Shown here: piece by piece, positions 10,301-56,439 of the stretch
Numbering within the stretch: the stretch's first letter is position 1
Layout: the number at the start of each line of letters is the position of its first letter
NCBI RefSeq assembly: GCF_963576615.1
Contig: NC_088717.1
Location: 40,192,302 to 40,256,301 of the forward strand
Length of the DNA: 64,000 nucleotides
Source of the DNA: Watersipora subatra
Taxonomy: Eukaryota > Bryozoa > Gymnolaemata > Cheilostomatida > Watersiporidae
Direction of reading: 5' to 3'
The notes under the pieces: generated by a model
What the model saw: the letters and a program-made list of their open reading frames with translations, nothing else
The model's database searches: none
What the model was told of the DNA's origin: nothing
Made by a program: the position numbers and the translations under genes

Positions 10301-13300
10301 TTGTCATTAGAACTCATGCACAACAATGCCCTTTGTCATTAGAACTCATGCACAACAATGCCCTTTGTCATTAGAACTTATGCACAACAATGCCCTTTGT
10401 CATTAGAACTCATGCACAACAATGCCCTTTGTCATTAGAACTCATGCACAACAATGCCCTTTGTCATTAGAACTTATGCACAACAATGCCCTTTGTCATT
10501 AGAACTCATGCACAACAATGCCCTTTGTCATTAGAACTTATGCACAACAATGCCCTTTGTCATTAGAACTCATGCACTTCTTTATATCTTTAGTTTTCTT
10601 ATTTCTCAGGTAGTGTTTTGCAAAATATACTGAAAAAGATTTGCGTCTGCAATAGACAACACAAAGTGTTTGTGCTGTCAGTTTTTGATACCAAGCTGTC
10701 TTAATACTAAAAGCTTTAACAAAAATGTTTGCTTTTTGGCTTTGTAAAAGTTTCAAGTGCCATCGTCAATAGGCATATTTTATGTACATTAATATTGTTT
10801 GCAGCTTTTTATTCGTAAATGTATTAGTCCAATAAAAAGGTTCAATATTGAATGTGTTTGTGAGGAATATACTGTAGCTGTAAGAGATGTTTCAAGCTAG
10901 TTTCTAGAGCAGGCAAAATTCATTGACTATTATTCCAGGTTTTTATAACTTCCATATTAGGAGCTGTTACTTTTTATAGAGTTGCTATGCCCTCATAGAA
11001 GCTTATTTTTTCATACGAGTTTTTATTCTTGCATGGGGGTTGTTATTCCTTTATAGAAGTTGTTATTCTTTCTTAAGAGTTGTTATCCCCTCCAAACTAA
11101 AAGTTGCCCCCCTCTTATTAGAGTTTTTTTTTCTTGTGTGGGAGTTGTTGTTCCTTTTTAGGGGGGTTATTCCCAGGGCTGATACTCCTCCCTAAAAGGC
11201 CCATTAGGTTCGGCCCAAAATCACGTTTTAGGGGGGGTTTTCAGACCATGAGGCACTGTCAGTGAATTTGCTACTTTAGGGGTGGTTTCCACAGCCAAGC
11301 CAGTAAAAGGGCCCATGCTCATCAAGGTTTTATTCAGCCAAAGTAATACCAAAAAATTGCACCGAAATTCCAGTCTTCATTTTAATACAAATCGCATTAG
11401 AATCTGCATGCTTGCTGACGGGAAACAAATGGAAAAGAGACAGTCAACACTGAATCATCTTAGCAACTCTTTAGCCATATACTCAGAACGAATGATATGC
11501 TATTTCTTTCATTGATATTTACTATGTTTTCCTTTGTAAATTAAAATGATGATCTGATGGTTGATGTTTGGAATCAGTTTTATTAACCCTTTTTGCAGGC
11601 TTAGTGACATTTTGTCGTTTTGCGATACTGACGCTAGTCGGCAGAGCAACTATTATGTCGCCACACGAACGGTTTTTATAAATTGATTTATGGTTAGCTA
11701 ATTGCCTGTTTTTGTTTAATTTTTTACTAATAATAAACTACAATATATCAGTCTCTGTTAGCAACAAAAAATAAGCCATTTGCAGAAAAAACGATCATTT
11801 TTGCAATACTAAACAAACAAAAAATTCGAAATAAAAACGTATGTAAATAAAATTAGGAATTTTGTTTGTAGGTTTTTTCTGCTTTATTAATGCATGAATC
11901 ATATTGGATGTTTAGCAGGGCTTAGAACCTGGGCGCCCTTTAGAAAACTCCCAGTGTTTAGGGGGTGTATTTCAAATTGACCAACCAGGTGATTGGGTGT
12001 ACAATATCCAAATTCAAATTGACCAACCAGGTGATTGGGGGTACAATATCCAAGTGTGGGCCTATCCAGGTGGGTGTTTCTTTCAGAGTATCAGCCCTGG
12101 GAGGTTATTTCACTGTAAAAGTTGGTATTCCTGCATAGGATTGTACAAAAAGTGTTTTGTGTAGTCAAAGAAAGTTAGATGGAATTTTGATCATTTGACT
12201 GATTTAAGATAAAAGCCTAAATAGCCAATCATAGAGTAATTTAGTTTTCATTCATTAAACGAACTATATCAAACTCACAAAAAAATTAACATTTTTATAT
12301 TTGTCTGAAAAAGATTAGTGGTCTCTGGGATAGAAACTTTTTTATAACTAAATAAAAACAACAAAAATTGTCTAATCGAACCACTTCTTTATATCTGTCT
12401 AAAAAAAGGTTTCACAAGGCATATTCACTGACTACTACCATTTATTATGCAACTTACTGCACAAGATATTTTTGATGAACCATGCTCTTCAATCTGTTCT
12501 TGTCACCCGATTGGCTGTCATGGTATCAAAAACATCACACTCCATATGTGAATATGTACTTGGCCTAACCTCAATTATTTTCAATTTTTGATATTCTCGA
12601 TGATTGCCTAGCACTACCATGAAAAAACGCGGCACCATTGACAAGTAGTGACTAGCTTTAGTGATGCAATGGCTTGAGTTACTTGAGACATTGGTGAATA
12701 ATTATAAGTAGAAACTGCAAATCTCAGCAATGGTTGTAAATTCAATAGTCATTATTTAACTTATTTTCAATAAGCTCCTCGCTATCAGTGCGCAAAAGAT
12801 TGTAGTTCAGCTCTACAAGATAATCACTTTAGATAATCATTTGGTGGTATGGGTGTGAGTGCTGGAATTTGAAAACTCTCTTGTCCATATTTTCGTGTCA
12901 AAATTTTATCCTATGAACTTTCACGAACTAGTCCTAGCATTGTAATTAGATAAATTAAAACCCCTTTTAACCATCTGCTGATAGCTTTGACCTATTTATC
13001 TTCTTCCTCGCATCATGCTAACTTGATAGTGTTCTATCCACAGTCATTAAATGTAACGATACTTTCCATTGTTTTATGGTGCCTTTTGAAGTTTGATTTG
13101 CTTATGCAGATATTGTTAGTCTCAGGTCACCTGTTTCCACATTTCGACATTCTGGGTATGTTCCTTTTACTGAAAGAGAAATAAGTGCTTCTGGGTGCCT
13201 GTTTTAGATACCCAGTCTTCATCTCGTCTCTTAAGCTTGTTAGGACCAGTATATTTTGAATACTTTGTTAGTTTGTCAAATCACTGTTACAGTATCATTT

Positions 13301-16300
13301 TGATATTTCATAGCATTATATTATAGTCAGATTTACCAAAGCTTTACCATAATAATGCTTGATAAGAAAGAAAATATGAACTTAAATTTTATATTTTCAG
13401 TATAGAGAGTGATTCAAATGATGATGAGGAACCAAAACAACATTTGTCATCAGCAAGACATACAATTAATCAAGCCTTTGGACTTGAAGATTCAACCAAA
13501 AAAGCTTCTAAAGAAATCGATACAGCTCCTACTCATCGTACAAAGTTTTGGGATTTGACGATACGGCAGTCCGTTGTACAGAGACCTTTTATCATACTTT
13601 GGCTCCTGATGTTAATCAACAGCACGACTATGAACCTCGTCACAGGCCTCTACAAAGGATATGGATTAAACAAAGTAGTGAACGATGACAGATTTCTCAC
13701 TCTTGTGGGTTCAACAGCCTTACTTTTCACCGCTCCTGCAAAAGTCGCAATGGGACTTTTGTCAGACAAACTGTCTAATAGGGTGAGTGATAGCAATTGC
13801 AAAACCATGATGTTATCATCTTTAACTTTTTTTGCTGCCAGAATTAGTGATTGGACCAATATTGTGACTGTTATTCAGGCCTGTTGGCTAGTTTTTCAAA
13901 GCGAGGTAGTAGCTGCGTCGATTGCTTCTTAATACAACGAAATTTCTATTCGAGCGCCACTATAGAAGAACACTAGAAAAATACAGCACCCCCTTTAATT
14001 GAATGCCGTTTGAAGGAAGGAATACTTGTGCACATACTTGTGCAGCACTTGCAAGAAAGCTATCGGTTAGTATTTTCGTACCAGCATCCTTATTAGCGTG
14101 CTTACTAGTGTGCCTAAGGCTTACTAGCATAACGTATTGATTATAAGCATAATTATATGCAGCAAGCTGGCTTTGGACATGGTTCTTATTATAGTAAAGA
14201 TTTAGACTAGCTTAAGTTACTCAAATTAATAAAGTAAATAAAGTGAATAAACTTGGTAAATGGCAACTACATCGCCTGCCATAGTTTATAAGCTGTTTTA
14301 AATCTTGAGCGATTGTGTAGCATATACCCGTGTATTTAGCTAGTCGTAAGTAGAACGGGATCGGTAGAAAATTGTCCACAAAATGGTACTAATAATGACT
14401 TGGTTACATCAATAACAATTAATTCTTTCATTGTTGCTGTAGTGGTTGCCATGGCTTTAGTGAGGGTGTGCCTGAGAAGATCGATCGTCACAATCATCAA
14501 AACTAAACTCTAATTTGAAGTCACTAAGGTCTCAATCTGATGCATTGTCTTTAGATTTGTTTATAAGGTGGTTTATAACCTGATCTGAAAACTTTAAGAT
14601 GCTTGGAAGAATGATGAAATGACTCTTCAGAAACACCGTATGATGTAATAGCAGTCCGTTTTTTAACTCTGCAGGTTTCAGAGGTTTTGTGTTTGTCACA
14701 ATTCCATATCCATAACATTTCCATGATTCATTTCCATATTATTTCCATTTCCATACCATTTCGATAATTAATTTCCATTTCCATATACCATTTCCATAAT
14801 TAGTTTCCACATTATTTCCATTTCCATAACATACCCTTATTTTATTTCCATTTCCATAACATTTCCATAATTCATTTCCATTTCCATTTACCATTTCCAT
14901 AATTAATTTCCACACTATTTCCATTTCCATAACATATCCCTATTTCATTTCCATATTATTTCCATTTCCATAACATTTCCATAGTTCATTTTCATATTAT
15001 CTCTATTTACATACCATTTACATACCATTTACATACCATTTGCATAATTCTGTGACGGTTGCAACAAGATTGCTTGCTGCATGAAACCATTGGTAGCAGC
15101 AAAGTTGAATAAATTTTAACTAAATGCTTTATATATTTAATATAGACCTACATACATGTATGGTAATAATGAAATATTACAAAGACAGAAAATGAAACTA
15201 TATCTAGGACATACATGTCACATGTACATCACAAGTATTTGTTCATATCACATTCTATTTATTCATTCTGACAACAGCGTATGGACATAAGAGCCTCAAA
15301 TGTTTTATCTTTTAACCTACACCTGTGCGGTCTAAAAATTTTGCTTGCAACACTGAACAAACGTTCTACAGGTCCACTAGATGCAGGGCAGGCCAAAAAT
15401 CTTTGAGCTAGTTTTGCCATGTTTGGTAGCCTGAGAGAATTTTGAGCCCAGTAGATAAGAGGGCAACTGTCTTTTAAAAGGAACTCCTCTGTTTTGTATT
15501 TTTTAAATTCAACCTCAAGCCTAGACTTGAAACCACATGATGAGTTCACTGAACCAGTTTTTTCCTTCATTACTGTAAACAGAACTTTCTTTCGTTTTGG
15601 ACTTGGTTTACCACTATCATTGCTTACCTCAATCTCTGATGGATCACAAGTTAGTTTGGCTATGTCCAAGAGACTATTTACTACAGAAGGCTCAGCAAAC
15701 GTTGCCTTAAAATTAGGATCCAAAAAAGTTGCAAACTCATTTTCATCTAGGCCGAGGTATTTTGTTAAACGTTTGTTAATTGAATCTCTCAAGCTACCCA
15801 CCAACTGGCTGTTAACAGAATCTGCTAAATCAGAGAACGAGGGCTTTAGCTGTTCAACACAAATAATGATCAGGCTAGCTGTGACAGAGTTTTCTGCCTG
15901 TAGTAAATTAGTGAAGACTTAAAAAGGTGTTAGTATCGTTATTAGCTCTTGAATGAGATCACGGTCAGTTCCAGTTAGCAAGGTTCCAGTACTGGCTTTA
16001 GCGAGTTTATTTTCTGATACTTTCACAATTGACCTTAGCATGATGAGCTGGGAATTCCATCTTGTTGCGTTAGATGCTTGTCTAAATTATCCAATGTCAT
16101 TCTCTAACAGTTCAGATGCATGTATCGACATTCTCCCTGATCTAACAATACGAGCAGTCTTTGCCAAAACCTTTGCATAAGGCGAAGTTGCAGCTTCACC
16201 CAGTCTATCTTTGATGCAAAGCTGAAGGGTATGTGCGAAGCATGACTGATGTTGTCTGTCCATTGAATTGGCTGTCGGTTCTATAGTTGACGAAAATTCA

Positions 16301-20979: not shown

Positions 20980-21028
<49 letters not shown>

Positions 21029-21665
21029 AATCTCAATGTTTGTCCGCACGTTCATTCGTACTTCTGTCTGGCCAGTTATGGCGATAAAGTTTTAAGAATG
21101 AGAAATCCGCTACAAACTGGATTAGAACTCACGACCCCCAGTTTTGCAGCCATCTATTTATCCAATACATTACACTATCCAACTTGCTACACAATGGAAT
21201 AAGTTTGGCACATACTTGGAATACATACCAATCTTTCGTGGTTTCACGTTAACCACTGCAGCTAGTGTTATGTGTAAAGGTATACCAGAAGAAAAATCCG
21301 TGAAGCCGCACTAAATGAAAAATTCACGCCCATAAGTTAAAAGATGCTTAAACTCATATAGCCAACAAAACTATTGCAATCAGTATGGATCTGTAGCAGG
21401 CACTGCAGCTGGTACAGTATGCATTACACAGAAATAAACACAGAAAACATAAATAGCAATTCACAGAAATAAACAAACGCCTTGATTTCAAAGTTAGAAA
21501 GGTAAATGTTGATGCTGAAAATGTTGTCTAAAAGTAAATTTTCTATACAAAAACTGTTTTTTTATTACCCGCACGACGCCGGGCATTATATATATATATA
21601 TATAATATATATATATATATAATGGCAAGGGCATATATATATATATATATATATATAATGGCAAG

Positions 21666-21732
<67 letters not shown>

Positions 21733-22030
21733 GATAAGTTGTCAGGCCTACTGCTAACAGCACTCTACGCTCTAAAAAGTGCGGAGTGTTATAACTAACT
21801 AGAGTGTGGAATAGGTTAATGTTACTTATCTTTGTTCCAGATTGATGTTTTATTCTGGGGTCACGACAGGTCTGTTTCGTGCTGGTGCACTCTTCAGGTG
21901 ACTTGTGTTGAATTCAACACAAGTCACCTGAAGAGTGCACCAGCACGAAACAGACCTGTCGTGACCCCAGAATAAAACATCAATCTGGAACAAAGATAAG
22001 TAACATTAACCTATTCCACACTCTAGTTAG

Positions 22031-22084
<54 letters not shown>

Positions 22085-24235
22085 TGTATATACTCATGCT
22101 ACAGACAGTACTGTTTCGGCTATTGAAGCCTCATCAGTGCAGCTCAGAGCTTAGGCAAGGGACACAAATCCCATTACCAATGAGAGTTGACTTCCTGCCA
22201 CAAAACAACTAAGTTGCCTCGCAGACTTTAAGAAAGTCAATGTGCTGGCACCAGAGTGCTCAAATCACAAAAGTGATGAGCTTTGCACAAAGGCTAATAG
22301 TGCCGCACCTCTCACAGAGTGCTCAACCAAACCGAAGTAAGGGAGCATATACTCATGCTACAGACAGTACTGTTTCGGCTATTGAAGCCTCATCAGTGCA
22401 GCTCAGAGCTTAGGCAAGGGACACAAATCCCATTACCAATGAGAGTTGACTTCCTGCCACAAAACAACTAAGTTGCCTCGCAGACTTTAAGAAAGTCAAT
22501 GTGCTGGCACCAGAGTGCTCAAATCACAAAAGTGATGAGCTATATATATATATATACAGTATATATACTGTATATATATATATATATATATATATACAGT
22601 ATATAAATTAGTAGACAATTAGATAGAATTAGATGAAACTAGAGGCATTGTTACATTTATGTTGTTCGTCGATAAACATGTCGATCGAGTAATTCAGTAA
22701 ATTAACGATGTCAATTAATTTAGTAAATATCGATGTCGATGCCTGATCTAGTAATTGAGTAAAATCCATAACTTCGAGACCACGGACAATGTGTTTTACG
22801 AGTGATATGGTAACATTTAATATGACCTATATAAAAATTTTGTCCTGATGATGGCTAATGAAGAGATCTTATATTTATCGCTCGTGGACTCTTTTTACAT
22901 GTATCACTCCTTACATCACGAATAAAGCACCCGCTCGAATCTGAGCGTTTATAAAAATTATCTCATTCAAATGCTTTATCTCTGGACAGGGTTAGCCTAC
23001 AAAGACAAAAATGACATCAAATTGTAGCTTATGTTTTCGCCTTTTATTGGTACTAATATCATTCGATCGACTTTCTTGACGCAATCAAATCTTTAAGCGT
23101 GAGTATTTTAACTAATGGAATGACTATTTGCCAAATAGATTCAAAAAATTCTATGCAGCTTAAAGGTTGACTTGCAACCAAATTCACATTACAGTTATTT
23201 TGTATCAAAAGGCTCACCATGTCTTACTCTGCTCTGTTGTAGATGCAAAATATGTGGAAATGTGATTACAAGCTCTTAAAAGCTAAAAAGACGAACTGTT
23301 AATTGCAGCCAACAAGAAACGCTGTAGTTTGGAAGTATTTGGAATATTTTGGAAAGTTTTATATACATGTATATATAGAAGTGCACATGTTTCAACAGCT
23401 TAAATTAATAAATATACTGTGATTTTAAAAAATTTGTGTTATGCAACAAGAGTGTTGTTTGTGAGAAACTTGGATTCATCTGTGAATATGTCAATTACGT
23501 AACTTATAAACTTAATAAGTATAATTTGTTGATTGACATGAACCATCGGTAAAATATAAAAGACAGTTTATATTCTGTTGTTTCTATGCTTTTTCAACTA
23601 ATTTCTTGTATCTTTTGCAGGCATTCGCTGGGCTACCTACTATACTGGTATCAGTTTTTCTTTTGCCGCGGATTGGCTATATTGGTATATTTGTTCTTTG
23701 CGGCATCTTTTCAGCAGCTGGTAAGTTATATATACTTTATAAAGTGTAGACTGTAGATACAGTCATAGTGCACTTAATTTTTATTAACCTGTAAATAATC
23801 TCTAATGTAGTTAGTTTATAAATGCTTCTAAGAGATAAAGTACCACCATAGACTAGTGTGCAAAGATTAGGGAGTATTTATGTAGAAGCAAAAAATAGAA
23901 TGTATCACCTTCCAATTGTAGCTCAACTTTGCAAAAGAAATTATTTACTTTTGTTGATCTCATTATGACTGCTGAATATTCCTTATAGATCATTGTTATA
24001 ATTCCGTCAAATGCTAATTATTATGGTACAATCATTATTGTTGTTTGCTACAGTTCTGACGTGTGACGTTATAGAACAAGCCTTAGAGAAAAACAAATTA
24101 CTAATTGCATTAACATCTTAGAAAATGTTTATTTTTAGTACACAGTAAAAGTACATATGTTGTAAATATATATTTGTAGCAGTTGCACTGACCTTGTTAC
24201 TTGATGTGAAGACATCTGATGGAAAATATGTATGA
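1366..24235 (+). CDS. MFS transporter, oxalate:formate antiporter / MCT-like, copy 1 (9 exons)
   Basis: Exons: 1366-1444, 2806-2995, 5674-5800, 6756-6910, 7868-8053, 13401-13782, 19124-19345, 23621-23720, 24180-24235. All introns are GT/AG, junction phases agree, and the sum is 1497 nt (498 aa plus stop). The product is a 12-TM plasma- or organelle-membrane permease, by family a transporter of small carboxylates; the substrate cannot be read from sequence. Family signs are an N-terminal helix [13 protein letters not shown], a loop 2-3 motif A relative ([10 protein letters not shown]), the helix 4-5 signature [12 protein letters not shown] followed by VMKWFPNYQ across the exon 3/4 junction, and a second motif A relative ([10 protein letters not shown]) at the end of exon 6. 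Exons 5-6 encode an acidic, charged central cytoplasmic loop. The C-terminus is short (exon 9, ending TSDGKYV). The start is the ATG opening the hydrophobic first helix, conserved in copy 2. Introns hold many transposons. Confidence 0.88.
1951..2090. repeat. Short minisatellite in intron 1 of copy 1
   Basis: A degenerate tandem repeat alternates GTTCACAGTCTACG with a GTTTCACT/CCCACG-type segment. The equivalent stretch in copy 2 (29,565-29,632) has fewer units, so the array length changed after duplication. Confidence 0.75.
3230..4776 (+). mobile_element. 5'-truncated LINE (CR1/Jockey-like) in intron 2, copy 1
   Basis: Degraded non-LTR retrotransposon. Reverse transcriptase blocks appear in order: NNYRPIS (about 3320), [12 protein letters not shown] (about 3520), a [10 protein letters not shown] block (about 3700) and the catalytic FADD (about 3790). 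After them come the usual post-RT segment and a C-terminus ending [12 protein letters not shown]...[14 protein letters not shown] near 4587. The 3' UTR ends in an AAACAAACAAA-type tail near 4776. Frameshifts and stops (for example TAA after the FADD block) show it is dead. The same insertion sits in the same intron of copy 2, so it predates the gene duplication. The clade assignment rests on motif resemblance only. Confidence 0.85.
7454..7867. repeat. 28-bp minisatellite abutting exon 5, copy 1 (about 15 units)
   Basis: The tandem unit of about 28 bp contains CTGATTGACAGCAAACAACT. The array runs directly into the exon 5 acceptor, whose sequence CTGATTGGCAG is itself a variant of the unit. Each unit therefore carries a branch-point-like ACTAA and a downstream GACAG. 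Copy 2 has about 60 units at the same place. Confidence 0.92.
8363..10577. repeat. 32-bp minisatellite in intron 5, copy 1 only (about 69 units)
   Basis: The unit, read from TGCACAACAATGCCCTTTGT through CATTAGAACTCA, repeats every 32 bp for 2.2 kb with very low divergence. Recurrent variants are CTTATG for CTCATG and GTCCTT for GTCATT. Copy 2 holds a single diverged unit (about 37,188-37,220), so the array expanded from one unit after duplication. Confidence 0.95.
11171..12102. mobile_element. 932-bp non-autonomous TIR element in intron 5, copy 1 only
   Basis: The element has 17-bp terminal inverted repeats TCCCAGGGCTGATACTC at both ends and is flanked by GGTTAT (11,165-11,170 and 12,103-12,108), a likely target duplication. 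The aligned copy 2 site (near 37,795) lacks the insert. No transposase-like frame is visible inside. A segment containing GACCAACCAGGTGATTGGG occurs twice in tandem near the right end. I cannot assign a superfamily: the ends look hAT-like (CAGGG) but no 8-bp duplication fits. Confidence 0.7.
13925..14010. repeat. Dispersed repeat with a TTGAACGCCACC-type motif (intron 6, copy 1)
   Basis: A short interspersed repeat containing ATTCGAGCGCCACTATAGAA and TTTAATTGAATGCCG. Related copies are at 26,650-26,770, 39,655-39,740 and 57,480-57,610. It lies just downstream of exon 6 in both transporter copies, so this insertion predates the duplication. Confidence 0.6.
14700..15045. repeat. Left subterminal TTTCCAT array of the hAT element
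   Basis: Dozens of TTTCCAT/ATTTCCATA motifs spaced by short AT-rich segments fill the first few hundred bases inside the left end of the hAT element. hAT transposases are known to bind short subterminal repeats; that these serve that role is inference. Confidence 0.8.
15259..17070 (-). pseudogene. hAT transposase, ZBED-like, with three nonsense codons
   Basis: Reading the minus strand from 17,070 to 15,259, one frame stays open except for three stops: TGA at 16,846-16,848, TAA at 16,087-16,089 and TAA at 15,919-15,921. The translation keeps family order. A helical N-terminal part leads into WDLRPFETI, then a catalytic-core segment with ATADLWSN and HTGENI, a cysteine/histidine-rich insertion, TRWNS across the second stop, and a C-terminal hATC dimerisation domain with [18 protein letters not shown] near the end. 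Lost function is seen directly; point nonsense mutations rather than frameshifts suggest fairly recent decay. A BED finger exon lies upstream. Confidence 0.9.
17429..17513. repeat. Tandem duplication of about 43 bp inside the hAT element
   Basis: A segment containing GATCACACACTTCCCAGAGG and CCACAAACTACATTAGA occurs twice in direct succession between the BED exon and the transposase body. Confidence 0.8.
17699..17932 (-). pseudogene. BED-type zinc-finger exon of the hAT transposase
   Basis: A 77-residue minus-strand frame contains CIHC about 30 residues before the end, followed by THLKVCH, giving C-x2-C ... H-x4-H. This is the BED-finger spacing used by hAT transposases for DNA binding. It lies upstream of the transposase body in a different frame and is separated from it by about 630 bp, probably an intron. 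It is counted with the broken transposase. Confidence 0.7.
18240..18720. repeat. Right subterminal TTTCCAT array of the hAT element
   Basis: The right-hand counterpart of the array at 14,700-15,045, with many copies of ATTTCCATAAC and ATTCATTTCCATATT. At the extreme right the motif also occurs inverted (ATGGAAAT), next to the terminal CAGGGATCG end. Confidence 0.8.
19610..19775 (-). repeat. tRNA-derived SINE-like module (intron 7, copy 1)
   Basis: On the minus strand an A-box-like TAGCTCATTGGTAGAGCG is followed about 35 nt later by a B-box-like GAGTTCAAATCC, then a body with TTTTAATAGCTATAGCTGG and an AT-rich tail. This order is typical of tRNA-derived SINEs. The orthologous insertion in copy 2 is at about 41,210-41,375. 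Related modules recur at 21,110-21,190, 27,030-27,210, 52,490-52,650 and 57,270-57,460. Confidence 0.65.
19885..20870 (-). repeat. Dispersed ~600-bp repeat, partly duplicated in tandem (intron 7, copy 1)
   Basis: This sequence (motifs GGATAGCTTCTGGTGG, TATACACACACTTCTATGCA) occurs again at 20,440-20,870, at 41,480-42,130 in copy 2, and on the other strand at 54,490-55,060 and 56,490-57,090. At the other loci it lies beside a tRNA-like module in the same order, so the two may form one composite element. It has no coding content I recognise. Confidence 0.6.
20935..21030. repeat. (AT)n-rich microsatellite
   Basis: Alternating TA with TAAATATA interruptions, ending at the TCTCAATG start of the repeat at 21,031. 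Confidence 0.9.
21031..21586 (+). mobile_element. Helitron-like non-autonomous repeat with antisense tRNA-like module (intron 7, copy 1)
   Basis: It begins TCTCAATGTTTGTCC after an A, and ends with a GC-rich hairpin-like ACCCGCACGACGCCGGGCAT before (AT)n. The copy 2 ortholog (42,338-42,901) ends in CTAG followed by T. TC start, 3' hairpin, CTAG end and A/T target fit Helitron-like elements. A tRNA-like block lies inverted inside (21,110-21,190). The alternative is a SINE joined to an unrelated repeat. Confidence 0.5.
21587..21732. repeat. (AT)n microsatellite with two ATGGCAAGGGCAT interruptions
   Basis: Long alternating AT broken by two copies of a TAATGGCAAGGGCATATA segment. It borders the hammerhead palindrome on its left side. 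Confidence 0.9.
21860..21902 (-). ncRNA. Hammerhead ribozyme, type I (palindrome left arm)
   Basis: Mirror image of the plus-strand ribozyme at 21,923-21,965 and identical to it in sequence, because the palindrome is perfect. On the minus strand it reads stem I GTCAC, core CTGAAGA, stem II GTGC/GCAC, GAAA, a short stem III, the GTC cleavage triplet and the closing GTGAC. Confidence 0.8.
21923..21965 (+). ncRNA. Hammerhead ribozyme, type I (palindrome right arm)
   Basis: All invariant hammerhead parts are present. Stem I GTCAC (21,923-21,927) pairs with GTGAC (21,961-21,965). Core CTGAAGA (21,928-21,934) fits CUGANGA. Stem II is GTGC-ACCA-GCAC (21,935-21,946), followed by GAAA (21,947-21,950). 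Stem III is CAG/CTG with a 2-nt loop, with the last A of GAAA pairing to the U of the GTC cleavage triplet (21,958-21,960). Predicted cleavage is after C21,960. A stem III this short is the form found in retrozymes and Penelope-like elements, where ribozymes act best as dimers. Activity is inferred, not shown. Confidence 0.82.
22036..22087. repeat. (AT)n microsatellite between the two hammerhead loci
   Basis: Uninterrupted alternating AT joining the palindrome to the tandem hammerhead dimer. Confidence 0.9.
22098..22143 (-). ncRNA. Hammerhead ribozyme, type I, unit 1 of the dimer
   Basis: Minus strand: stem I GCTGCA pairs with TGTAGC (one G-U pair). Beyond an internal loop (TGA/AT), a further CTC/GAG pairing extends stem I, a layout that can provide the loop-loop contact of active ribozymes. 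The core is CTGATGA, stem II GGCT-TCAAT-AGCC, then GAAA, stem III CAG/CTG with a TA loop, and a GTC cleavage triplet. Cleavage is predicted between 22,104 and 22,103 on the minus strand. Confidence 0.85.
22357..22402 (-). ncRNA. Hammerhead ribozyme, type I, unit 2 of the dimer
   Basis: Identical to the ribozyme at 22,098-22,143, displaced by exactly 259 bp. It keeps CTGATGA, the GGCT/AGCC stem II, GAAA, minimal stem III and GTC. Two intact copies in direct order fit the dimeric action expected with such short stem III. Confidence 0.85.
22542..22605. repeat. (AT)n microsatellite with ATACAGTATATATACTGTAT palindrome
   Basis: Right-hand AT tract bordering the hammerhead dimer. Homology with copy 2 intron 7 resumes after it (AATTAGTAGA...AATTAGATAGA). 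Confidence 0.85.
23163..23340 (+). repeat. Single arm of a foldback repeat family (intron 7, copy 1)
   Basis: It contains GGTTGACTTGCAACCAAATT, TCACCATGTCTTACTCTG and ATGTGATTACAAGCTC. It matches both arms of the element at 25,063-25,956 and is absent from the aligned copy 2 intron. Confidence 0.7.
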
Positions 24236-27210: not shown

Positions 27211-28240
27211 ATAATATTGTGCAAATATTTATGCAGCGATTGTAAATCTACTATTGCTTACTATTAGCATGCTTGAAGATCATGGTTGCATGAGAGATCA
27301 TTACGTGTAAAACCACATAACAAGCTGACTTCAGACAGAGAACATGGCTCTTATTATAGTAAGTTACTAGCTTAAGTTACTAGCTTAAGTTACTAGCATA
27401 GGCTCCTCAAATTCCTTGGGTCATTATTTTGCTACTCGTGCCATGCTGGGCATTTAGCAATTTCTAAATATATGAACCTGACCCCATAAGCATTCTGTGA
27501 TGTGGAAGATATTGTCACAACCTTCAAAGTTTGCCAATCAGAGATGTAGCTGTCAAATCAAAGAATTATCTTTCAAAGAAAGTGACTATGAATCATTTTG
27601 TGTTTATGTCTAGAAACTCATCAATGATAATATCAACTAAAAAGAGACATTAAAATATTTATTTCTAATTGGCTAAACAGTTTATTACTATAATTGTTCT
27701 CTCTAGAGAGCAGCCATAGTTTCTGATCATACAGGAATCAGATCATAGCTTTCAAACACTATGTTTTCATGCTTCAATTGAGTTCAGAGTTGCCCACTGC
27801 TGATAAACTCGCATCCTACCGTTTCAATGATTTGAAGTTGCACCATACATGTAGGTTTTGCCAAGATTTGCAATGGATCCCTCAATACAGAGCTTGTAAA
27901 AGTAAACTCACTTTTCACATTTTCACATTTAGCAAAGTGAAATTGTGTCAAATGCGTTTGGATTTTATTGTTTCTACAACTTGGAGTGGAAGCGACTCCA
28001 AATTTATTTGAAACATAAAAACATGGTCAATGTCAGCATGTTTCAATGAAAATTGTATGTAGATTTTACATTAACATTCTTCCAATTGTTTCTTGGTAAT
28101 GGTCATGCAGATCATCCGCTGCCTTCTGAGTCAGTATTAAATCGAATGTTGTCAAAAAAGGAATTGGTTTGGTGCTCATTAATAATATAGCTTGTCTAAT
28201 CAATGTGTCTAACTTGTTTAACCTGCATCTAACTGAACCA

Positions 28241-28286
28241 GAAACATACAAGTGTGCAACCTTTCCGTTGCACGCTTGTATGTTTC
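28241..28286. repeat. 20-bp-stem hairpin upstream of transporter copy 2
   Basis: Arms of 20 bp (from GAAACATACAAG to CTTGTATGTTTC) enclose CTTTCC, with one G-U-type mismatch. Copy 1 (637-668) keeps the inner 13 bp perfectly but has ACATGT inserted in the right arm. Confidence 0.75.
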
Positions 28287-28991
28287 AGCTTTTTTGGCTG
28301 CTTTTCCCAGTGGAAGATCGTGACATGTAAAACTTTAGTTGGCCAGAACTAATAGCGGTAAGTTAGCCTTGTAATCTAATAAGTGATTATTAACAGCGCA
28401 GAATGAATACTCATACGGATGGAATGCTTGTGTGATAGATGAGTTGTCTGTTATGATAGATGAGTAGGCTGTTATGGTGATATAATGGTAAGAAACCTCT
28501 ATAAGTATCAAGATGAAATCAATGTTAGAGGGTATGCACAAATGTGATTTTGTGATAACACTGCTGAGCCAGAAAGTGTGACAAGTCGTTGTTAGATATT
28601 GACCTTTTTACCTCAAGCTCATTAGGAAACAGAACTTCTCTGCTATAAAAAGATGGTTAAAAGGGCAATGATACCATATAATCCATGTATGAATATACGA
28701 CAGCTACATGTAGATACTTAAACCATCATGTCCTTCTAAATAGTTCCGGTTTTTATGAGCAACCAGTGAAATGCTTGATTACACATACTATAACCTTTGC
28801 ATGGTCATTATACATGCGTAAATATGAGTGAAGGAGCTTTGAAAGGATTATTTCTCTGGTACGATACTCAACCACCGGAGGCTTTCGTAATGCTCCATTT
28901 CACAGATGAGAATTAGTGCAAGCCTCATTACAATCACTTCTACCAGCCTAACAAGTGAATCAGATCTGGTGACTGTTAGTAGGCTACTAGC

Positions 28992-31900
28992 ATGAGGCTC
29001 GTCAAAGGAATCCTTTCTGTTTTAGGAGGGGGCATTTTGCTTTCCTCACTGGGCATGTTCTTTTCATGGGGTAAGCGGTAAAATATACTAACCCCCCTTC
29101 CCATAATTACGTAGTAGGTAAAGCATGATGTCTAACGTGTGAAATATAATGCACCGTTAGAAATTCTCAACGGGTAAGTTTGATTTGTTATGATATCCTA
29201 ATGTCAATTTTCCTTAAGAAAAATAATGTACAACTGTCATCACTCAAAAAGTAAGCTTTTTGTACCATGGGCTTTTTTCTAAAATAAACACATTTGTCTA
29301 ATATGACAAACAAAAAAAAGGTTTTTGTGACTATGCAGTGCTTTAATTTAAGTCAGGTATATGACTGGAACTGACATCAAACCTTAACACAATATCTGAT
29401 CATTTTTATGAATGAAGTGTACACAAAAGACATGATTGAAATGTTCAAAGTAGATTTTCAACTCAAACTATGCTGTATTTGTCGATGACATAAATATTAT
29501 CTACACCTAAACCAGTCTTGGCTATAATAAGATTCGTCTCGTCACTTTGTTGGTTCAGAGCCACAGAGTTCACAGTCTATGGTTCACAGCCCACATTTCA
29601 CTGTTCACAGTCTACGGTTCACTGTTCACATAGCTCACTGTTTAAAACCATAGAGAATTTGAACCCATGACAATAGGTTCTTGGGCTTCACCATCCAGCA
29701 TGTTACTACCTGCACCAATCTTTCGCAGTACATGTTTTTGAATTTTTGGACACATACTTACATCAGGTGCTTTGTCAGGACACCTACAATCTGTAATGGT
29801 GCACTAGACCTCTAGGATATTAGTGTTTTATAATATATTCTTTTACCATCAATCCAGCTTACCTCACTACTACTTGTCCCATCATAATAGCTTTGAACAT
29901 ATAGCTAGTACAAAAATTGCTCGTTTTGCGCATTTGCGTCACAGGTTTTAAAATTCTGAATAAACTGCGCGCAGAACATTTATATTTATCCTTCCAAGCA
30001 TATGACCATGGATCATTTTCTATTTTGTGACACCAACATACTACATCTACCGTAGTATGATGCAGTTTATGAACTTTTGTTACTAAAACCTACAATTCAC
30101 AAACTCGACTACTCTACAATACTATTAGATTACCAACTTTTGAAACACGCCTGTTCAGTTCACTCAATAATTCCTGATTTCTGTCTTTCCTTTTTCTGTT
30201 CTTCCTTCTGATATGAAATGAGAAACATCATTTTGTTGATGATTACCAATGCCAATAAAAAGTTACCGTATACGTAATTTTGCAAATTGTTTTTCAATGA
30301 CAATTTTTAGACAAGTGTGCATCATAAGATAATTCTCTTGCGCTTATTTGTAGCAAATTTCAGTCCATACGCGATCTCCTACATAAGACTATACTCAAGC
30401 CCTAGCGATTTAGACTACAGCAGTGTCTTATGGATTCCCGGCTTGATTGCAGTCGGTTTTAGTCTTACCATGTACATAGCTGGAGTTGTTGAGAATAAAA
30501 TTGGCACAAGGGCTGTGACAGCGATCGGCTCAGCTATTTGCAGGTACTTTTCTTTTAACCTCATCAACCAGAAACTTACAGTAACTTACACAGTTACTTG
30601 CCTTACTGTTAATTTAGCTGTACACAAAAAAATTGTTGCTATGTTACTGTAGAATTGTTTGCTGGAATTATGTCTTTCCTGGTAATATGCTGCAAGATCA
30701 ATATTGCCATCAATTTTATATTAATAAATCTAACAACATTGTTATTGTTCATGTGTGTACATGCATTTGCTTGTATGTGTGTGTATGTGTGTTAGTCAGC
30801 GTAAAAACTATTCAATTTCACATGTTTGGCCAATTTCCTCCACATTTCACAAGCTGTTATCTAATAACTATAGACCTATTTCTATTCTGCCGGTTTTCTC
30901 AAAAACTTTGAGCAAGAATATTGCAATACTGCAACATTATTGTAGAATCTCAATTTGGATTTCAGAAAGGAAAAGGAACTCGTGAAGCATTGATAAAATT
31001 TACAAACAATACACTTGCTGCTTTAAACAATAGTCTATTTGTTTTAGGTATTTTCATTGACTTCTCAAAGGCTTTTGATACAATACATCACTCTATTTTG
31101 ATAAACAGGCTTGAGCAAATAAATTTTTTTCATTCGAATTTAAAATTAATTCAAAATTATTTATCAAATCGTTTTCAATGTGTTATAATATCTCAGAAAA
31201 TATCCCAACCTTTAGTAATTAAATGTAGAGTACCCTAAGGATCCATCTTTAGACCAACACTATTTTTGTTATATATAAATGATCTTGTAAAGAGTACTGA
31301 TAAATTTAAAACTATTTTGTTTGCTGATGATACTAACTTATTTTATACTGCTAAAAATTTGAATAAAGATATTTAACTATAATTAATAAAGAATTAAATG
31401 CGATAAAAAATTGATGTGACCAAAACAAACTAACATTGAATGTTGACAAGACTAATTTTATAATTATTCAAATTCCACAAAATAAATTTTGATTAACAGA
31501 AAACATTTCCATGAATGGACAAAACATACTAATGATGGATAGTATAAAATTTTTAGGCGTCACAATAGATAGTACACTAAACAGGTCAAGACACATAGAA
31601 CTATTGAGAAAACAACTGCGACAAAGCTTGGGACTTATTTACCAAGCCTCGTTGATCTTACTAGAAATGCCTCTTTTGCTTTAATATAATACTCTAATTA
31701 ACAGTAAAATAGTTTATCGCTTGGAAGCATGGGGAAACGCTCCAATGAGCTTCTTAAACAAAATTTTAGTCATCCAGAAGTGATTGCTTAGAATAACATA
31801 TCATAAAAACTCTTACTTTCCGTCAAATCCTTTGTTTAAAAGATCTCGTGTTTTGCCTATACAGCAACTTTACCAACTAAAAATATGTCTTTTAGCTTTC

Positions 31901-34900
31901 ACACAATTTAAATCTCAAATTAACTTGTCAACGCGTTATAACACTCATCATTCCTTATTTTCATTACCTCTTCCACCCTTCTTCTCTACTGGTGGCCATA
32001 GACGGGTTGCTTATCGTGTGTCATCAGAATGGAATTCCTTGCCAATTTGGCTGAGGAAAATTGGTAGTCATGATAGCTTCAGAGCTGCTTTAAAGCAGTA
32101 CTCGTTGGCCTCTCTGGAATAGATTTGTTCAGATTTCTATTGCTTAGACAATCTTGTTTTTTTCATTGACAATCTCTTCTGTTAACTCGGGCTCTGCGCC
32201 TTGAATAGCCATGCTACTGCACATATGGGCCCACATTGCACCTTACTTTTTATAATTTTCTTATGTCATGATTTAATGTGAAATAAAACCAACAAACAAA
32301 TATATTTCATACCTTTCAGAGGTTTCTGTAAACCAGTCTCTTAAACACCCACCTGCAGGTTATCTCATTGAAAATGAGAGAAATGTCGTGTATACAGTAA
32401 TAAATCTCTATACTCGTATTTACACTGAAGCCAATTATAGATGTGCTTTTGTACATTTGCCTTTTGTATGATGAGCTGTTGAAGTATTGATGACTGTCTT
32501 ATTTTATAATAAGCATTTCATATTCACATATACGGTGAAAATATGGTAAAAGAAGTAGCTGTTTTCATTCTTACTATAATTCCTGTTCAGGACAAAAGAA
32601 TTTGCAGAAGTGTTTTTTTAATCTGTGTAAGTTTTAAACCAATTTTCAGTTAATAGAAATCCACGCTGAGTTGAGAGCTATTATATTAGTAATGTAATCT
32701 TGCTGGTATTCATAGACAGCAGAGCATTAGGATTAAACTCCTTTCTAATGAGTATCCAAAGAGTTATATGGAAGGGTAACAGATCTATAATTATACTTGT
32801 GAGAAAACTCTTTTTATGGCTAATATTAGGCTGCCTTAAACCAATGCCGTCAAAAGTGTATAATAATGCATTAAATAATGCATTAACTGGATGGTAGGCT
32901 CTGTAACCTTAGTGAAAAAGACTTAAGATTTATCTTTGACCTATCTAACTGTAAGTGCGCAAGTGTGCAGTATGATTATATGTAGTTTCAGGAAAAACTC
33001 TAGTTTAAAGTTGCCTGCTTTATACAACCATATTTTAAACTACATATACATAGACTGCCGCTGTCTCGTCTACTTTTAAAACAACTACTCTAACTGGCTG
33101 TGTAGCTTGTTGTTTATTGTACTTTCTGTTATTGTGGTGTTTCCAAGTAAATTCTGGGCAACCTCAAGTTTAATATCTTTTCATGATTTCTTTCAGCTTG
33201 AGCTTGCTTCTCTCAGCCTTCTCCATCAAGGTTAACTACTACTTGTTCTGTACTACACTTGGTTTCATGTTTGGGATAGGATATGGGTTCATGTACACTC
33301 CTCCAATCACACTCGTTATGAAGGTAATACAAATAGTATGTCAGAAACATGTGTAAGACAGCAATAGCAAGACGGAGATATCTACGGTTTGAAGCCTAAC
33401 CAATATTTCAGGTTATACTGATGATAATATTAACATCTGAAATGGTCTACGCTGTTGGCAAGAGACCCTGTAGACAGTTAAATGTAGAAATAAAAATAAT
33501 TAGTGACAATAAAATCAACCAAAGATTTTGGTAACACATTAAATATCTTCTATTTGGTCTGTATTGCCATTTATAGCATCATTTTACAATAACGAAACTT
33601 TTACAAAATTATGTTGTTCTTGCACAACATCAAGGAAAGTAAAAATAAGAATTCTCTAAGATTTATCTGCTCTTAACTAAAACAACAAATCTATGATAAA
33701 GTATGAGCTTTACTAATACCAAGATCATGAGCTTCTAAGTTTCACTTGTTTAGAAAAGACTGGCAAGTAGCCAATTTACTTACATTTCAGTCCTACTTTT
33801 GGAATGGAAAACAGGAAGTTTCAAATACAACTATACATTATCACGAAAAACTGTGGTTTGGGGTTCAATAGAACTTTTTAATTTTAAATCTCCACTAATG
33901 CAAAGTTCCTAGCCTGTAAAAAAGCATATTTACACTACAACTGCAAGAAATCTCATTGTGCGTAAAAAACCTCAAAATTAGCATCAAATTTTTTTTAATT
34001 TGCAATTTTTTTGAAACAAACTAATAACAATGTCAAACATATATAATAACTGCTGGCCTCTTTTACATTTTTTACCAAACACTAGATTCTACCAGCCAAA
34101 CTCACAGCAACTGTTAAAACTTCTAGCAATATCACATCTCCCTTTTTACAGAGCAAATCTTACAAATGAAGAGAGTTAGAGGTACTAAAAAAGATCGCTG
34201 ATTTAATAATTTCATCTAATCATTCAACTCAGTATTTTTGTCTCAGAAATTTGTTTTTTGCTTTGAGCTGTGTTTTGCAGTGGTTTCCAAATTACCAGAC
34301 AACTATGGCAGCCATTGTCCTTTTGGGACCTTCCACTGGTGGACTAGTGTTTAATCAAATAGAAGATGCTTATGCAAACCCTACAAATGTAAAAGCAGAC
34401 CAAGTTACCACCTTGAATGTCACAGACTCAGACAGGTTAGTACACAATACATTAAGTTTATGAAATAGCAAAAAAGAAACATTTTGTTTAAAAAGTTTGC
34501 AAAAAATGATGGTGATTTTTGGAAAAATAAAAAATAAACAACAAATTTTTATTTCTTGTTTACAGCTTGTTTTGTATAGTAATATATTATATATATAGTA
34601 ATGACACAAATTGACAAAAAAAGTTTTTGATGAAAACAATGTGACTGACTACAACATTTAAAAATTATTCTGTTTTGCTATTACAATATGTTTTAACTGT
34701 TCGATTACTTATTCAGCTTAAACTTGTTAGCAATCAATTGAAAATTTATTCGGTTGAACTTGCTAAATATATGAGATTAATTTCTTGTTAAAGTCAGAGT
34801 TTACATTTTTTGTTAGTGAATTTTGTTTTAAGTTTTTTTAACTTTGGCAGTCATAGATTGAGACTCTTATTTTGCAACCTACTTTCTAGCTGCTGCCTGT

Positions 34901-40900: not shown

Positions 40901-43716
40901 GGCCTTGAAAACTCAACGACCCTTGTGGGAATTATGTTTTCTGCAGAGGTAAAGTAAAACGCATATGTACAATAATGAATGTTTTAGGAAACTTGTCAGC
41001 TCAGTTCTTTTGTAATTATTTATATGTGTAACTCCCCCAGCATCGAATGGCCGGAAAAAAGGATTTTTTAAATTTGTTTGCACAATTCCGTTGCTCAAAT
41101 ATGAAACTATAAAATGATCTACTTTTATAGGCTCACACTTTGTACAGTCTGTGCAAATAATAAACACTGAAAGCTTTCAGAGTGAAAATCTAAAAAAGAA
41201 TTCAATTTATATAGACATATATACATGTGTCTGTGTTTGTTCAGCTATAACTATTAAAATCTTGGATTTTAAAATTCTGCATTATGGTGGGTCTGAACTC
41301 ACGGCGACCACTAGATTTAAATTCACACGCTTTACCACTGAGCTATTCAAAGCGTATTGATCATATACTCTATCATATACCATATAGCGTATGCACGTGA
41401 TAAATGATGTATTATTTGAAACTATGAATTCTATCAACTCTATGAAACACAATGCTTTTTGTGTTTTTTGAATTTCTGTTTTTGGTTTTTCATAAGGTTC
41501 AATTGCTATATCTGTGGTCAAGGCCAATTCTTGTTACGCGGACAATTGTATTATCTTTAAAGGAAGAGCCTTGGCATTCTCTCTCTCCGTTTGGTCAGAC
41601 AAAGACTGTACGATATCTCATTTTTACATTTTCACCAGTATCATATATTTGTACCAGTATCGAGAGTTACCAGTATCATCGTATCCAAAGTTTTGATAGA
41701 TAGCTTTTGGTAAAACAGTAACCTTTTTTATACACACACACTTCTATGCAAAAAATTTTATTATTACTTCAATACATTCAGGATTTCTATTTTGCTTTCT
41801 CAGTTTGTATTAATTGTATCATTGCCAAATCATCTTTCATTGTAATCGTAACAAAACAGACTTAATTTAGCTATTACTTGCTAATTATTTCACATTTACA
41901 TTTAAACCCTTTTACAGTTGTTTTATTTTTTTTTAATTTATTTGACCTATACAAAACATTTTACTCGTGATATGAAGTTTAAAAGTTACAATTGTTTGTC
42001 AAAGTTACAAAACCTTTACAGTTGCTTTCATTTTTTCTCTTAATATATTTCAACCACACAAAACACTTTTCTCATGATATGTAGTTTGAAAGTTAGAATG
42101 GCAAATGCTGTTATATGTTTAATACAAATCAAAGACTTTAGTACAGCTAGTACAGGTAGCTGTACAGGTAGTACAGCTACCTGTACAGCTACCTGTAGGT
42201 GTACAGGTAGCTGTACAGGTAGTACAGCTACCTGTACAGCTACCTGTAGCTGTACTACCTGTAGCTGTACTACCTGTAGCTGTACAGGTAGTGTACAGCT
42301 AGTGTGTATATACTGTATATCTACGTGTATATATAAATCTCAATGTTTGTCCGTGCGTTCGTCCGTACTTCTGTCTGTCTAGCTATAGTGATAATAGTTG
42401 AAGAATGAGAAATGCGCTGCGAACTAGATTAGAACTCACGACCCTCAGTTTTGCAGGCATCTATTTCTCTAATACACCACACTGACCAACTTGCTGCACT
42501 ATGAAATAGATTTGGCACATACTTGGAATACATACCAATCTTTCATGGCTTTACGTTAAACACTGCAGCTAGCGTTATGTGTAAAGGTATACCACAAGAA
42601 AAATCCGTGAAGCCGTACTAAAAGAAAAATTCATGCCCATAAGTTAAAAGATGCTTAAACTCATATAGCCAACAAAACTATTGCAATCAGTATGGATCTG
42701 TAGCAGGCACTGCAGCTGGTACAGTATGCATTATACAGAATTAAACACAGTAAACATAAATAGCAGAGTTCACAGAAAAAACAAACACCTTGGTTTAAAG
42801 GTTAGAATGGTGGATGTTGATGTTGAAAATGTTGATTAAAAGTAAGTTTTCTGTGCAAAAACTTTGTTTTATTACCCGTACAACGCCGGACATCCATCTA
42901 GTATATACATACACATATATACATGTATATATACATGTATATACAAATTAGTAGAAAATTAGATAGAATACATATTTTGGTTAGCTGCTGTCAGTTTTGT
43001 GCTTGTGCAGGTATTAGGCTGTAGATCTCCACTGAAACAAAATGGTTGTTTTTCAAACACATGTATATATCTCTGTCACGGGATGCCTCTTTAATTCCGT
43101 GATGCCTCTCTGATTACATGATCTATCACCAATCACGTGATCAGAGAAGGATTCCAGAATCCCAATCTGATATATCATATATATATATACATTGTATATA
43201 TATGTATATATACATTGTATATATATATATATATATGTATATACATTGTATATATATGTATATATACATTGTATATATATATATATGCATATATATATGT
43301 ATATACATTGTATATATATACATTGTATATATATACATTGTATATATATATGTATATACATTGTATATATATACATTGTATATATATATATATGTATATG
43401 TATGTACATGTATATGTATGTACATGTATATGTATGTACATGTATATGTATGTACATGTATATGTATGTACATGTACATGTATATGTATGTACATGTATA
43501 TGTATGTACATGTATATGTATGTACTTGTACATGTATGTACTTGTACATGTATGTACTTGTACATGTATGTACTTGTACATGTATGTACTTGTACATGTA
43601 TGTACTTGTACATGTATGTACATGTATATGTATGTACTTGTACATGTATATGTATGTACTTGTACATGTATGTACATGTATGATCAGAGAAGGATTCCAT
43701 AATCCCAATCTGATAT

Positions 43717-43766
<50 letters not shown>

Positions 43767-45026: not shown

Positions 45027-45326
45027 GGATCAAGTTTCCTAGATTTACCAACTTTTTGACCTCTCGCTTGCTGATTGAAGAAATCTTACTGTCTTGTTTT
45101 TAGCAAACTTATTTTGCTCTGTAGAAAACTGCTACAAGTATTTTTAAATGCATGTAGGTACATAAATCTTTAAATTGTAGATAAGTATTGTTACTATTTT
45201 GCTTTTGCTCATGTGTAATAACAACTAGTTTATATTAGTAGATGTGTGATATATAGAAGTAGTGAGAGTTTTGCTATTAGCCAGTTTAATAATGTGAGCG
45301 AACAGCTTCTCGTGACGTTATGCTAT

Positions 45327-55509: not shown

Positions 55510-56395
55510 GTTTTCTAAAATATTCTCCATGTGATGTTGTACTGGATGAACTGATCTTTAAGCTGCCATATAAAACTACTTAGCTCGGTTGATGTTCGTT
55601 TTGATGGATTGTTGAAGCTGGTGCGATGGTTGTAGTATCTTATCTTGAATGGGCCCTCATCAGAAGATATCAATGTGGGCCCTCTGTCAGGACAACACAA
55701 GTTTTATTGTTGGCATCAGATTTATTAGTCATAACTGTAGCCTGATAGATGAAGAAACTGGACATGCATGCATTTGGCAACGGGCATGTATTCTTGTTTC
55801 GACAGTTGCTGTTGGCTTTTTGTTTGATAGTTGCGCTATGTTGTTATTAGCAATAGTTTGCCCAATATTCTTCATGCAGCTACTTATAGCTAAGTTTTAC
55901 ATTGTTTCTATTGAATATTGAATGAAGCTTGGCATCTTTAGAGAATTTTTCATTCAGGGCTCTGAAGAAGAGCTTTTTTAGATTGGTGGCAATATTTTTA
56001 GAGAAAATGAGGTTATACCAGAGTAGATTTTCCTGCATTTAGCCCAGGTGTTATGTAATGTTGCAATCTCATTGAATGTCAAGTTATGCTGGTAACCACT
56101 TTTATTAAGTGCTTCTTGGTGTTCTTTAGTATGTTGGCTGAATATATCTAGATTGAATGATATTGGGGAGAGGCACTGATTGACTGACACTGGAATATTC
56201 TTAATGATGGACGATGGGTGGTTAGACCTTGTTTGGATGTATCTAGAAGTATTATTGGGCTTGCTGAAAGGCTTATATAATTCATTCTGTAGATCTACAG
56301 ATGTATCCAGAAGATTAATGGTGATTTTATTTGCATCTACAGTTATTTTCAGTCCATATCGACGGAATAATGTGCACAAATCTATATATAAATAA
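55510..56395 (-). pseudogene. Penelope-like retroelement remnant: RT C-terminal region plus GIY-YIG nuclease
   Basis: On the minus strand a 133-residue frame (56,379-55,978) contains GLKITVDANK, a KPNNTSRYIQ segment and SNHPSSIIKNIP, a layout known from the region after the reverse transcriptase core of Penelope-like elements. Translation continues in shifted frames through KLHSIFNRNN and a cysteine-containing linker to a C-terminal block (55,700-55,515) with PFKIRYYNHRTSF and ELSSFIWQLKDQ, resembling GIY-YIG endonuclease sequence. Frameshifts and a ~27-bp internal duplication around GGGCCCA break it. The 5' part with the RT catalytic motif is missing. Family assignment is from motif memory, not a search. 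Confidence 0.65.
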
Positions 56396-56439
56396 GATAT
56401 TTACATATACTGAATATAGATTTATATGTATACGGATAT

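Follow-up and report, generated by a model that had tools for sequence, protein, structure and literature searches.

An array of a 259-bp unit in the genome of the bryozoan Watersipora subatra, carrying two identical type I hammerhead ribozymes on the minus strand, is very probably a metazoan non-long terminal repeat (non-LTR) retrozyme, a class already known (PMC7229834). It lies in the window analysed here, 64,000 nucleotides of contig NC_088717.1 (positions 40,192,302 to 40,256,301 of assembly GCF_963576615.1), inside a (TA)n microsatellite that it shares with what we identify as the 3′ end of a Penelope-like element. To the known class we would add a usual 3′ end for the copies, a (TA)n target and a co-located candidate helper. 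The assignment was made because the testable defining features of metazoan non-LTR retrozymes are present: a type I hammerhead layout with a helix I internal loop facing loop II, a tandem unit of 259 bp (approx. 150–450 bp in the class), many copies, a GC content below 50% and RNA that is highly self-paired in the ribozyme-bearing polarity. A previous sequence-only reading of this DNA had proposed metazoan retrozyme architecture, which is the best reading of the locus. Its features, in window coordinates, are as follows.

22088..22541, minus strand: retrozyme insertion, 454 nt or 1.75 units, RNA sense on the minus strand
22352..22408, minus strand: hammerhead 1, core 22396-22363, predicted cleavage 22363^22362, outer limits by counting
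22093..22149, minus strand: hammerhead 2, core 22137-22104, predicted cleavage 22104^22103, outer limits by counting
22104..22362, minus strand: RNA between the predicted cleavage sites, 259 nt, 46.3% GC
22347..22541, minus strand: 5′ (truncated) unit, 195 nt in common with the 3′ unit, truncated at monomer position 81
22088..22092, minus strand: UAUAU, monomer positions 12–16, proposed priming site on (TA)n
22032..22087, unstranded: (TA)n tract at the RNA-sense 3′ end of the retrozyme
22542..22605, unstranded: (TA)n tract at the RNA-sense 5′ end of the retrozyme
42901..42944, unstranded: paralogous site without insertions, a short TA/CA-rich tract between equivalent flanks

The array is built on an exact direct repeat of 195 nt (22088-22282 = 22347-22541) with a start-to-start distance of 259 nt. 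The sequence-only reading had called it a 259-bp tandem dimer; the spacing stands, but at 1.75 units the array is short of a full dimer. A strict hammerhead scan of the window gave four matches, the two ribozymes of the array (minus strand, 22137..22104 and 22396..22363) and one in each arm of a neighbouring palindrome, compared with a mean of 0.01 matches in each of 100 first-order Markov sequences of 64 kb. Together, the scan and the exact repeat bear out the claimed pair of identical type I hammerheads on the minus strand, spaced by 259 bp. Their layout is canonical. Stem I comprises 6 bp, an internal loop (UGA/AU) and then CUC/GAG, while stem III has 3 bp with a palindromic GUAC loop or, alternatively, 4 bp with a 2-nt loop, both as that reading had described them; stem II has 4 bp and the loop UCAAU. 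The 259-nt RNA that it expected between two cleavages is likewise bounded exactly by the predicted sites.

No Rfam family matched the retrozyme locus at its gathering score. The best family, Hammerhead_HH9, reached 22.4 and 21.7 bits (cut-off 52; E-values of 0.0036 and 0.0063 in a 466-base search), with an alignment that spans the whole model and has the helix I internal loop at the matching place; most other E-value matches at the locus were to families of microRNA, which the TA tracts and the perfect palindrome attract. Contigs of prokaryote genomes gave no match in an exact search. The 25-nt module of core plus stem and loop II (UCAAU) is identical in 27 viral contigs (L001–L027), and in 27/27 it is enclosed by a complementary stem I (6 bp, in 10 kinds) and stem III (in 20 kinds). 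Among the matches listed in a separate scan of viral contigs (L031 onward), stems were present in 98 of 129 distinct matches, with a 6-bp stem I in 85 of the 98 and the A/A flanks seen in the retrozyme in 84. Two broader patterns found 2 and 1 loci in viral contigs and were not used. We take the viral matches to indicate that the module can form a competent hammerhead layout, and use them for that alone, not as evidence of kinship. The layout, together with the viral ribozymes of equal loop II and A/A flanks, suggests a tertiary contact between the helix I internal loop and loop II.

Folded as a circle in ribozyme polarity, the 259-nt RNA reached −90.2 kcal/mol (z −4.2, 0/300 shuffles as low), against a z of −2.6 for the opposite strand; the optimal fold retains the pairings of stems I and II and replaces stem III. 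When two ribozymes were folded together, a double hammerhead with a 10-bp helix III was the minimum-energy structure (−45.4 versus 2 × −18.3 kcal/mol). A dimeric form with a 10-bp palindromic helix III has been described in a mosquito repeat (Perreault 2011, PMC3088659), and type I hammerhead repeats of newt and axolotl, which have a weak helix III with a palindromic loop, are reported to cleave as dimers (PMC7229834); compared by description alone, the helix III of the retrozyme looks nearer the axolotl form, in which it is more stable. Most invertebrate retrozymes, on the other hand, cleave efficiently as single motifs (Cervera and de la Pena, PMC7229834), and the earlier claim that this stem III needs dimers is uncertain. 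On these models, self-cleavage by the hammerhead is plausible.

The host genome (783,720,542 bases in 239 contigs) contains 1,091 copies of the exact 34-nt core (525 + 566), with none for the reversed control. A looser hammerhead pattern gave 2,207 matches against 190, a count that includes other families and is inflated by an unrelated long tandem repeat at C1:44229257-44261852, where an identical 39-nt string fits the pattern at least 23 times at approximately 776 bp or multiples thereof. The sequence-only reading had suggested a genome search for further tandem copies, and these were found: among 100 listed places, 31 of 34 neighbouring retrozyme core pairs are in direct orientation and 26 of them lie 259–260 bp apart. 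Units identical to that of the window occur at L181, L206 and L207, which indicates that the family is recent.

The ends of the copies were read in two samples. Searching with the 259-nt unit gave 1,334 candidates at first look, and 40 of these were scored. Sample 1 was drawn from motif-listed places on contig C1 (20 loci and 37 regions, including Penelope and third-family places); three overlapping loci were excluded, L198 and L150 are one place, and 41 retrozyme pieces were obtained. Picking by motif demands a ribozyme and leaves the position of the 3′ end free, and copies without the ribozyme end would be under-sampled. Sample 2, which favours long matches, consisted of 48 pieces from the window and from 39 loci chosen by similarity. 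The window is in both, and the combined set holds 88 pieces, with the apparent duplicates L190/L191 and L233/L234 retained. The 3′ end falls at monomer position 16 in 74/88 pieces (41/48 in sample 2) and between positions 9 and 17 in 82/88; neighbouring pieces without an intact core motif, in L187 and L194, likewise end at 16. Positions 12–16, which lie 12–16 nt past the cleavage site, read UAUAU, the sole 5-nt alternating TA stretch of the unit. Flanks in sample 2 are TA-rich on the 3′ side in 39/48 pieces and on the 5′ side in 27/48, compared with a background of 0.5% of window 25-mers, and any target-site duplication would be masked by them. The 5′ ends, in contrast to the fixed 3′ end, are scattered across the unit, and piece lengths range from 0.09 to 11.02 units (11 units in L216), with less than one unit in 20/41 pieces of sample 1 and more than one in 43/48 of sample 2. 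One fixed 3′ end at (TA)n with scattered 5′ ends is as expected of target-primed reverse transcription from one RNA site, while the over-length copies call for a circular or multimeric template.

A segmental duplication within the window (21001-21621 versus 42307-42931, 87% identity) provides a paralogous empty site. The retrozyme and the neighbouring palindrome are both present in one copy and both missing from the other, where 24 of 25 bases of the right flank match (counted by eye); beyond this shared flank the copies diverge until 23370/44129. Insertion would be the simpler reading of the filled and empty copies, the rival, a deletion between TA tracts in the second copy, being less simple. 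The duplication is large (1-24459 versus 27629-45255, in pieces 83–89% identical), and each copy has a reading frame with weak, below-cut-off similarity to MFS_1. A 32-bp tandem repeat occupies 8364-10577 (69 copies, 97%) and is nearly missing from the paralogous stretch, and a direct repeat of about 40 bp (43140-43180 and 43681-43720, by eye) flanks a 500-bp TA/TACATG array.

The palindrome at 21790-22035, with a 60-nt tail, lies within the same (TA)n microsatellite as the retrozyme and consists of two head-to-head 3′ ends with their own hammerhead.

21730..21912, minus strand: Penelope-like 3′ end, long arm, 183 nt including the 60-nt tail (21730-21789), hammerhead core 21897-21865
21913..22035, plus strand: Penelope-like 3′ end, short inverted arm, 123 nt, tailless, hammerhead core 21928-21960

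The statement of the sequence-only reading that two ribozyme lineages sit side by side therefore holds, the neighbour being a probable Penelope-like 3′ end. Its hammerhead differs from that of the retrozyme (core CTGAAGA, 5-bp stem I) and sits 75 and 135 nt before the element's two insertion ends. At L193, palindrome-type sequence follows a 224-residue frame (378-1052) that runs into the hammerhead core. The L193 protein has 738 relatives, one among the 120 listed being named from the sea anemone Actinostola. GIY-YIG (PF01541) was found in 5 of 21 aligned family members, one of them selected because it was already so labelled; the query lacked it. The single protein had no match in Pfam or NCBIfam, and its search gave no relative of solved structure. 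It is because of GIY-YIG in aligned members, together with motifs that we take to be characteristic, that the frame beside the hammerhead identifies the palindrome family as Penelope-like.

The exact Penelope hammerhead core has 97 + 97 genome copies, and, among 100 listed places, 26 of the 27 pairs of neighbours no more than 5 kb apart are head-to-head. At nine distinct loci the arms end at query positions 120–123 or 183, and the sequence that follows contains TA. In a survey of the arms, in which 40 of 765 candidates were scored, 13 of 41 long arms had a close inverted partner, 12 of these ending at 123 and one at 113, and in 12 of the 13 pairs the arms meet no more than 7 bases from the same point; because the query stops at 183 and this survey did not extend into the flanks, arms longer than 183 would have gone unseen. 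No close inverted second long arm was found among the 41, one such pair lying approximately 1.2 kb apart, and at one locus a second long arm follows in direct order approximately 0.3 kb away. Tailed (183) and untailed (123) arms stand head-to-head at 21730-22035, L150, L153, L193, L195 and L197. With 60 nt between them, the two arm ends resemble the pair of start sites that define a ‘tail’ in an anole element (PMC11167929).

These observations suggest a route by which the retrozyme may move. A minus-strand transcript of a tandem copy would, judging from its structure, be cut by the hammerheads into 259-nt RNA, which a host ligase could close into a circle, by analogy with published retrozymes. 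Nicked (TA)n would then anneal to the single UAUAU 12–16 nt past the cleavage site and prime reverse transcription; the position of the 3′ end is observed, and annealing would account for it. Copying back along a circular RNA, often past the start, would leave insertions, mostly of non-integral length, whose 3′ ends coincide and whose 5′ ends are scattered. The resident Penelope-like element is the most likely source of the enzyme: the two families are seen together, and we infer its use from the shared target and from the closeness of the ribozyme to the insertion end in both. Tentatively, at slightly less than even confidence, we propose that the hammerhead-bearing Penelope-like element and the retrozyme share one machine and one target, that nicked (TA)n primes on UAUAU and an RNA circle is copied repeatedly (up to 11 turns), and that on Penelope's own linear RNA both target strands prime, giving a head-to-head twin with one arm tailed and the other untailed. 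The anole Penelope enzyme cuts and extends both strands (PMC11167929), and inverted partial copies and 3′ extensions are known for Penelope-like elements (PMC8969392).

Several results weigh against this account. Taken alone, the ribozyme favours a competing fold by 5.5 kcal/mol (−18.3 versus −12.8), the minimum-energy fold of a 534-nt transcript contains no hammerhead, and the energy gained on dimerization was reached by 34 of 200 helix III shuffles, so the natural helix III is not singled out. The compensatory-pairing check put forward by the sequence-only reading lends the stems no support, with 0 double changes in 16 pairs among 52 distinct ribozyme copies, although double changes would not be expected in a young family. 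Cleavage is inferred from structure and the circle from published retrozymes. Six of the 88 pieces end elsewhere (at 3, 55, 83 twice, 233 and 251); the one at 55 is cut by the edge of its locus, and the two at 83, which have the same flank at both loci, are probably one duplicated insertion. The 5′ ends of the motif-picked pieces are non-uniform (Kolmogorov–Smirnov p = 0.026; p = 0.22 in the other sample). As to the helper, Penelope hammerhead pairs are head-to-head and retrozyme pairs direct tandems, insertion at (TA)n was compared for these two families only, and the start site of the anole Penelope enzyme is non-homologous to the cut DNA (PMC11167929), unlike the match of TA to UAUAU. Lastly, across 63 arrays the variant sites not shared between units (230) outnumber those shared by all covering units (73), and part of the shared count reflects position 161, a single subfamily site at which the window departs from the majority; a single circle per array is thus not proven.

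The template could instead have been a long multimeric transcript of a tandem array, which would also yield over-length copies and would accommodate the unshared variants common between units of one array. We regard this as unlikely, since units are closer within arrays (1.3% mean divergence) than between them (3.8%; 129 near-complete units), since some arrays carry several variants in all units, and since abundant circles are reported from published retrozymes (PMC7229834). The arrays at L182 (8 shared versus 2 unshared variants), L174 (5 versus 1) and L176 fit one circle well, whereas L236 and L216 do not. Ordinary satellite DNA, in which unequal crossing-over or slippage spreads the unit and the ribozyme is a passenger, could be seen in the 11 units of L216 and in the 230 unshared sites; it is nonetheless improbable, as the sampled copies are dispersed with a common 3′ end and scattered 5′ ends, nearly half of the motif-picked pieces are shorter than one unit, and crossing-over does not produce one end fixed at (TA)n.

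It is scarcely credible that the array is merely a remnant (pseudo-LTR) of the Penelope-like element with no separate retrozyme. The two have in common a type I hammerhead and a place in one (TA)n tract, but BLAST found no similarity between the 259-bp unit and the palindrome, a GIY-YIG-type frame adjoins the Penelope hammerhead, whose core is different and whose stem I has 5 bp, and the pairs are head-to-head in the one family (26/27) and direct in the other (31/34). A more serious question is whether a long interspersed nuclear element (LINE)-type enzyme mobilizes the retrozyme in place of a Penelope-like one. A fixed 3′ end with 5′ truncation is a LINE signature too, and fits the retrozyme copies; the window contains a LINE-like reverse transcriptase fragment (RVT_1); and non-LTR elements that target microsatellites are known (PMC4640811). 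Set against this, the Penelope-like family inserts at the same kind of target, and its hammerhead lies close to its insertion ends, a weak argument given that the target was compared for that family only, and we consider a LINE-type enzyme somewhat unlikely. A tRNA-type short interspersed nuclear element was considered and rejected, the best match to the RNA polymerase III B box having 3 mismatches.

The element as we read it, a retrozyme with a probable Penelope-like helper, can be set beside systems already described. Metazoan non-LTR retrozymes (Cervera and de la Pena 2020, PMC7229834) are alike in unit size (150–450 bp), in tandem dimers to multimers, in a GC content under 50%, in a type I hammerhead with a helix I internal loop, in a self-paired predicted circle and in coexisting with a hammerhead-bearing Penelope-like element. 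The copies sampled here differ from those published in having a common 3′ end at UAUAU against (TA)n. The word microsatellite is absent from PMC7229834 and PMC7761336, and a literature search covering part of the matches gave no description of a fixed priming site or of TA-microsatellite targeting for retrozymes. Plant LTR retrozymes (PMC7761336) share dimeric hammerheads and a circular RNA model but have type III hammerheads, LTRs of approximately 350 bp and hammerheads 600–1000 bp apart. Hammerhead-bearing Penelope-like elements (PMC11167929, PMC8969392) resemble the retrozyme in an AT-rich target and a ribozyme near the start of reverse transcription, and have two adjacent start sites that define the ‘tail’ as well as inverted partial copies; the 259-nt unit, unlike them, is non-coding, has another ribozyme and has neighbouring copies that are mostly direct tandems.

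Other mobile-element sequences were also seen. A separate, broken fragment in the window had no Pfam match; two protein relatives and motifs presumably typical of the group suggest a Penelope-like reverse transcriptase.

55978..56400, minus strand: broken Penelope-like reverse-transcriptase fragment

A hAT-type transposase remnant (Dimer_Tnp_hAT) lies at 15259-15918 on the minus strand. In the genome, a third hammerhead-like family (CTGATGATTACTGCATGCAGTATGAAACTTTTAGTC) with a minimal stem III occurs at L199–L205, where two inverted pairs have spacings of 65 and 109 bp.

The approximately 80 sampled loci form a readable record of retrozyme insertion, with a usual RNA start, one kind of target, variable 5′ ends and over-length copies. 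PMC7761336 and PMC7229834 leave open how animal retrozymes are primed and which element mobilizes them, and according to the former, a 2020 review, retrozyme repeats show no motif that would identify a helper. A candidate helper at the same kind of site makes the proposal biochemically testable, with a predicted first base. If true, the sharing of one machine and one target by a hammerhead-bearing Penelope-like element and a retrozyme would reveal which element helps animal retrozymes to move and by what rule they are primed.

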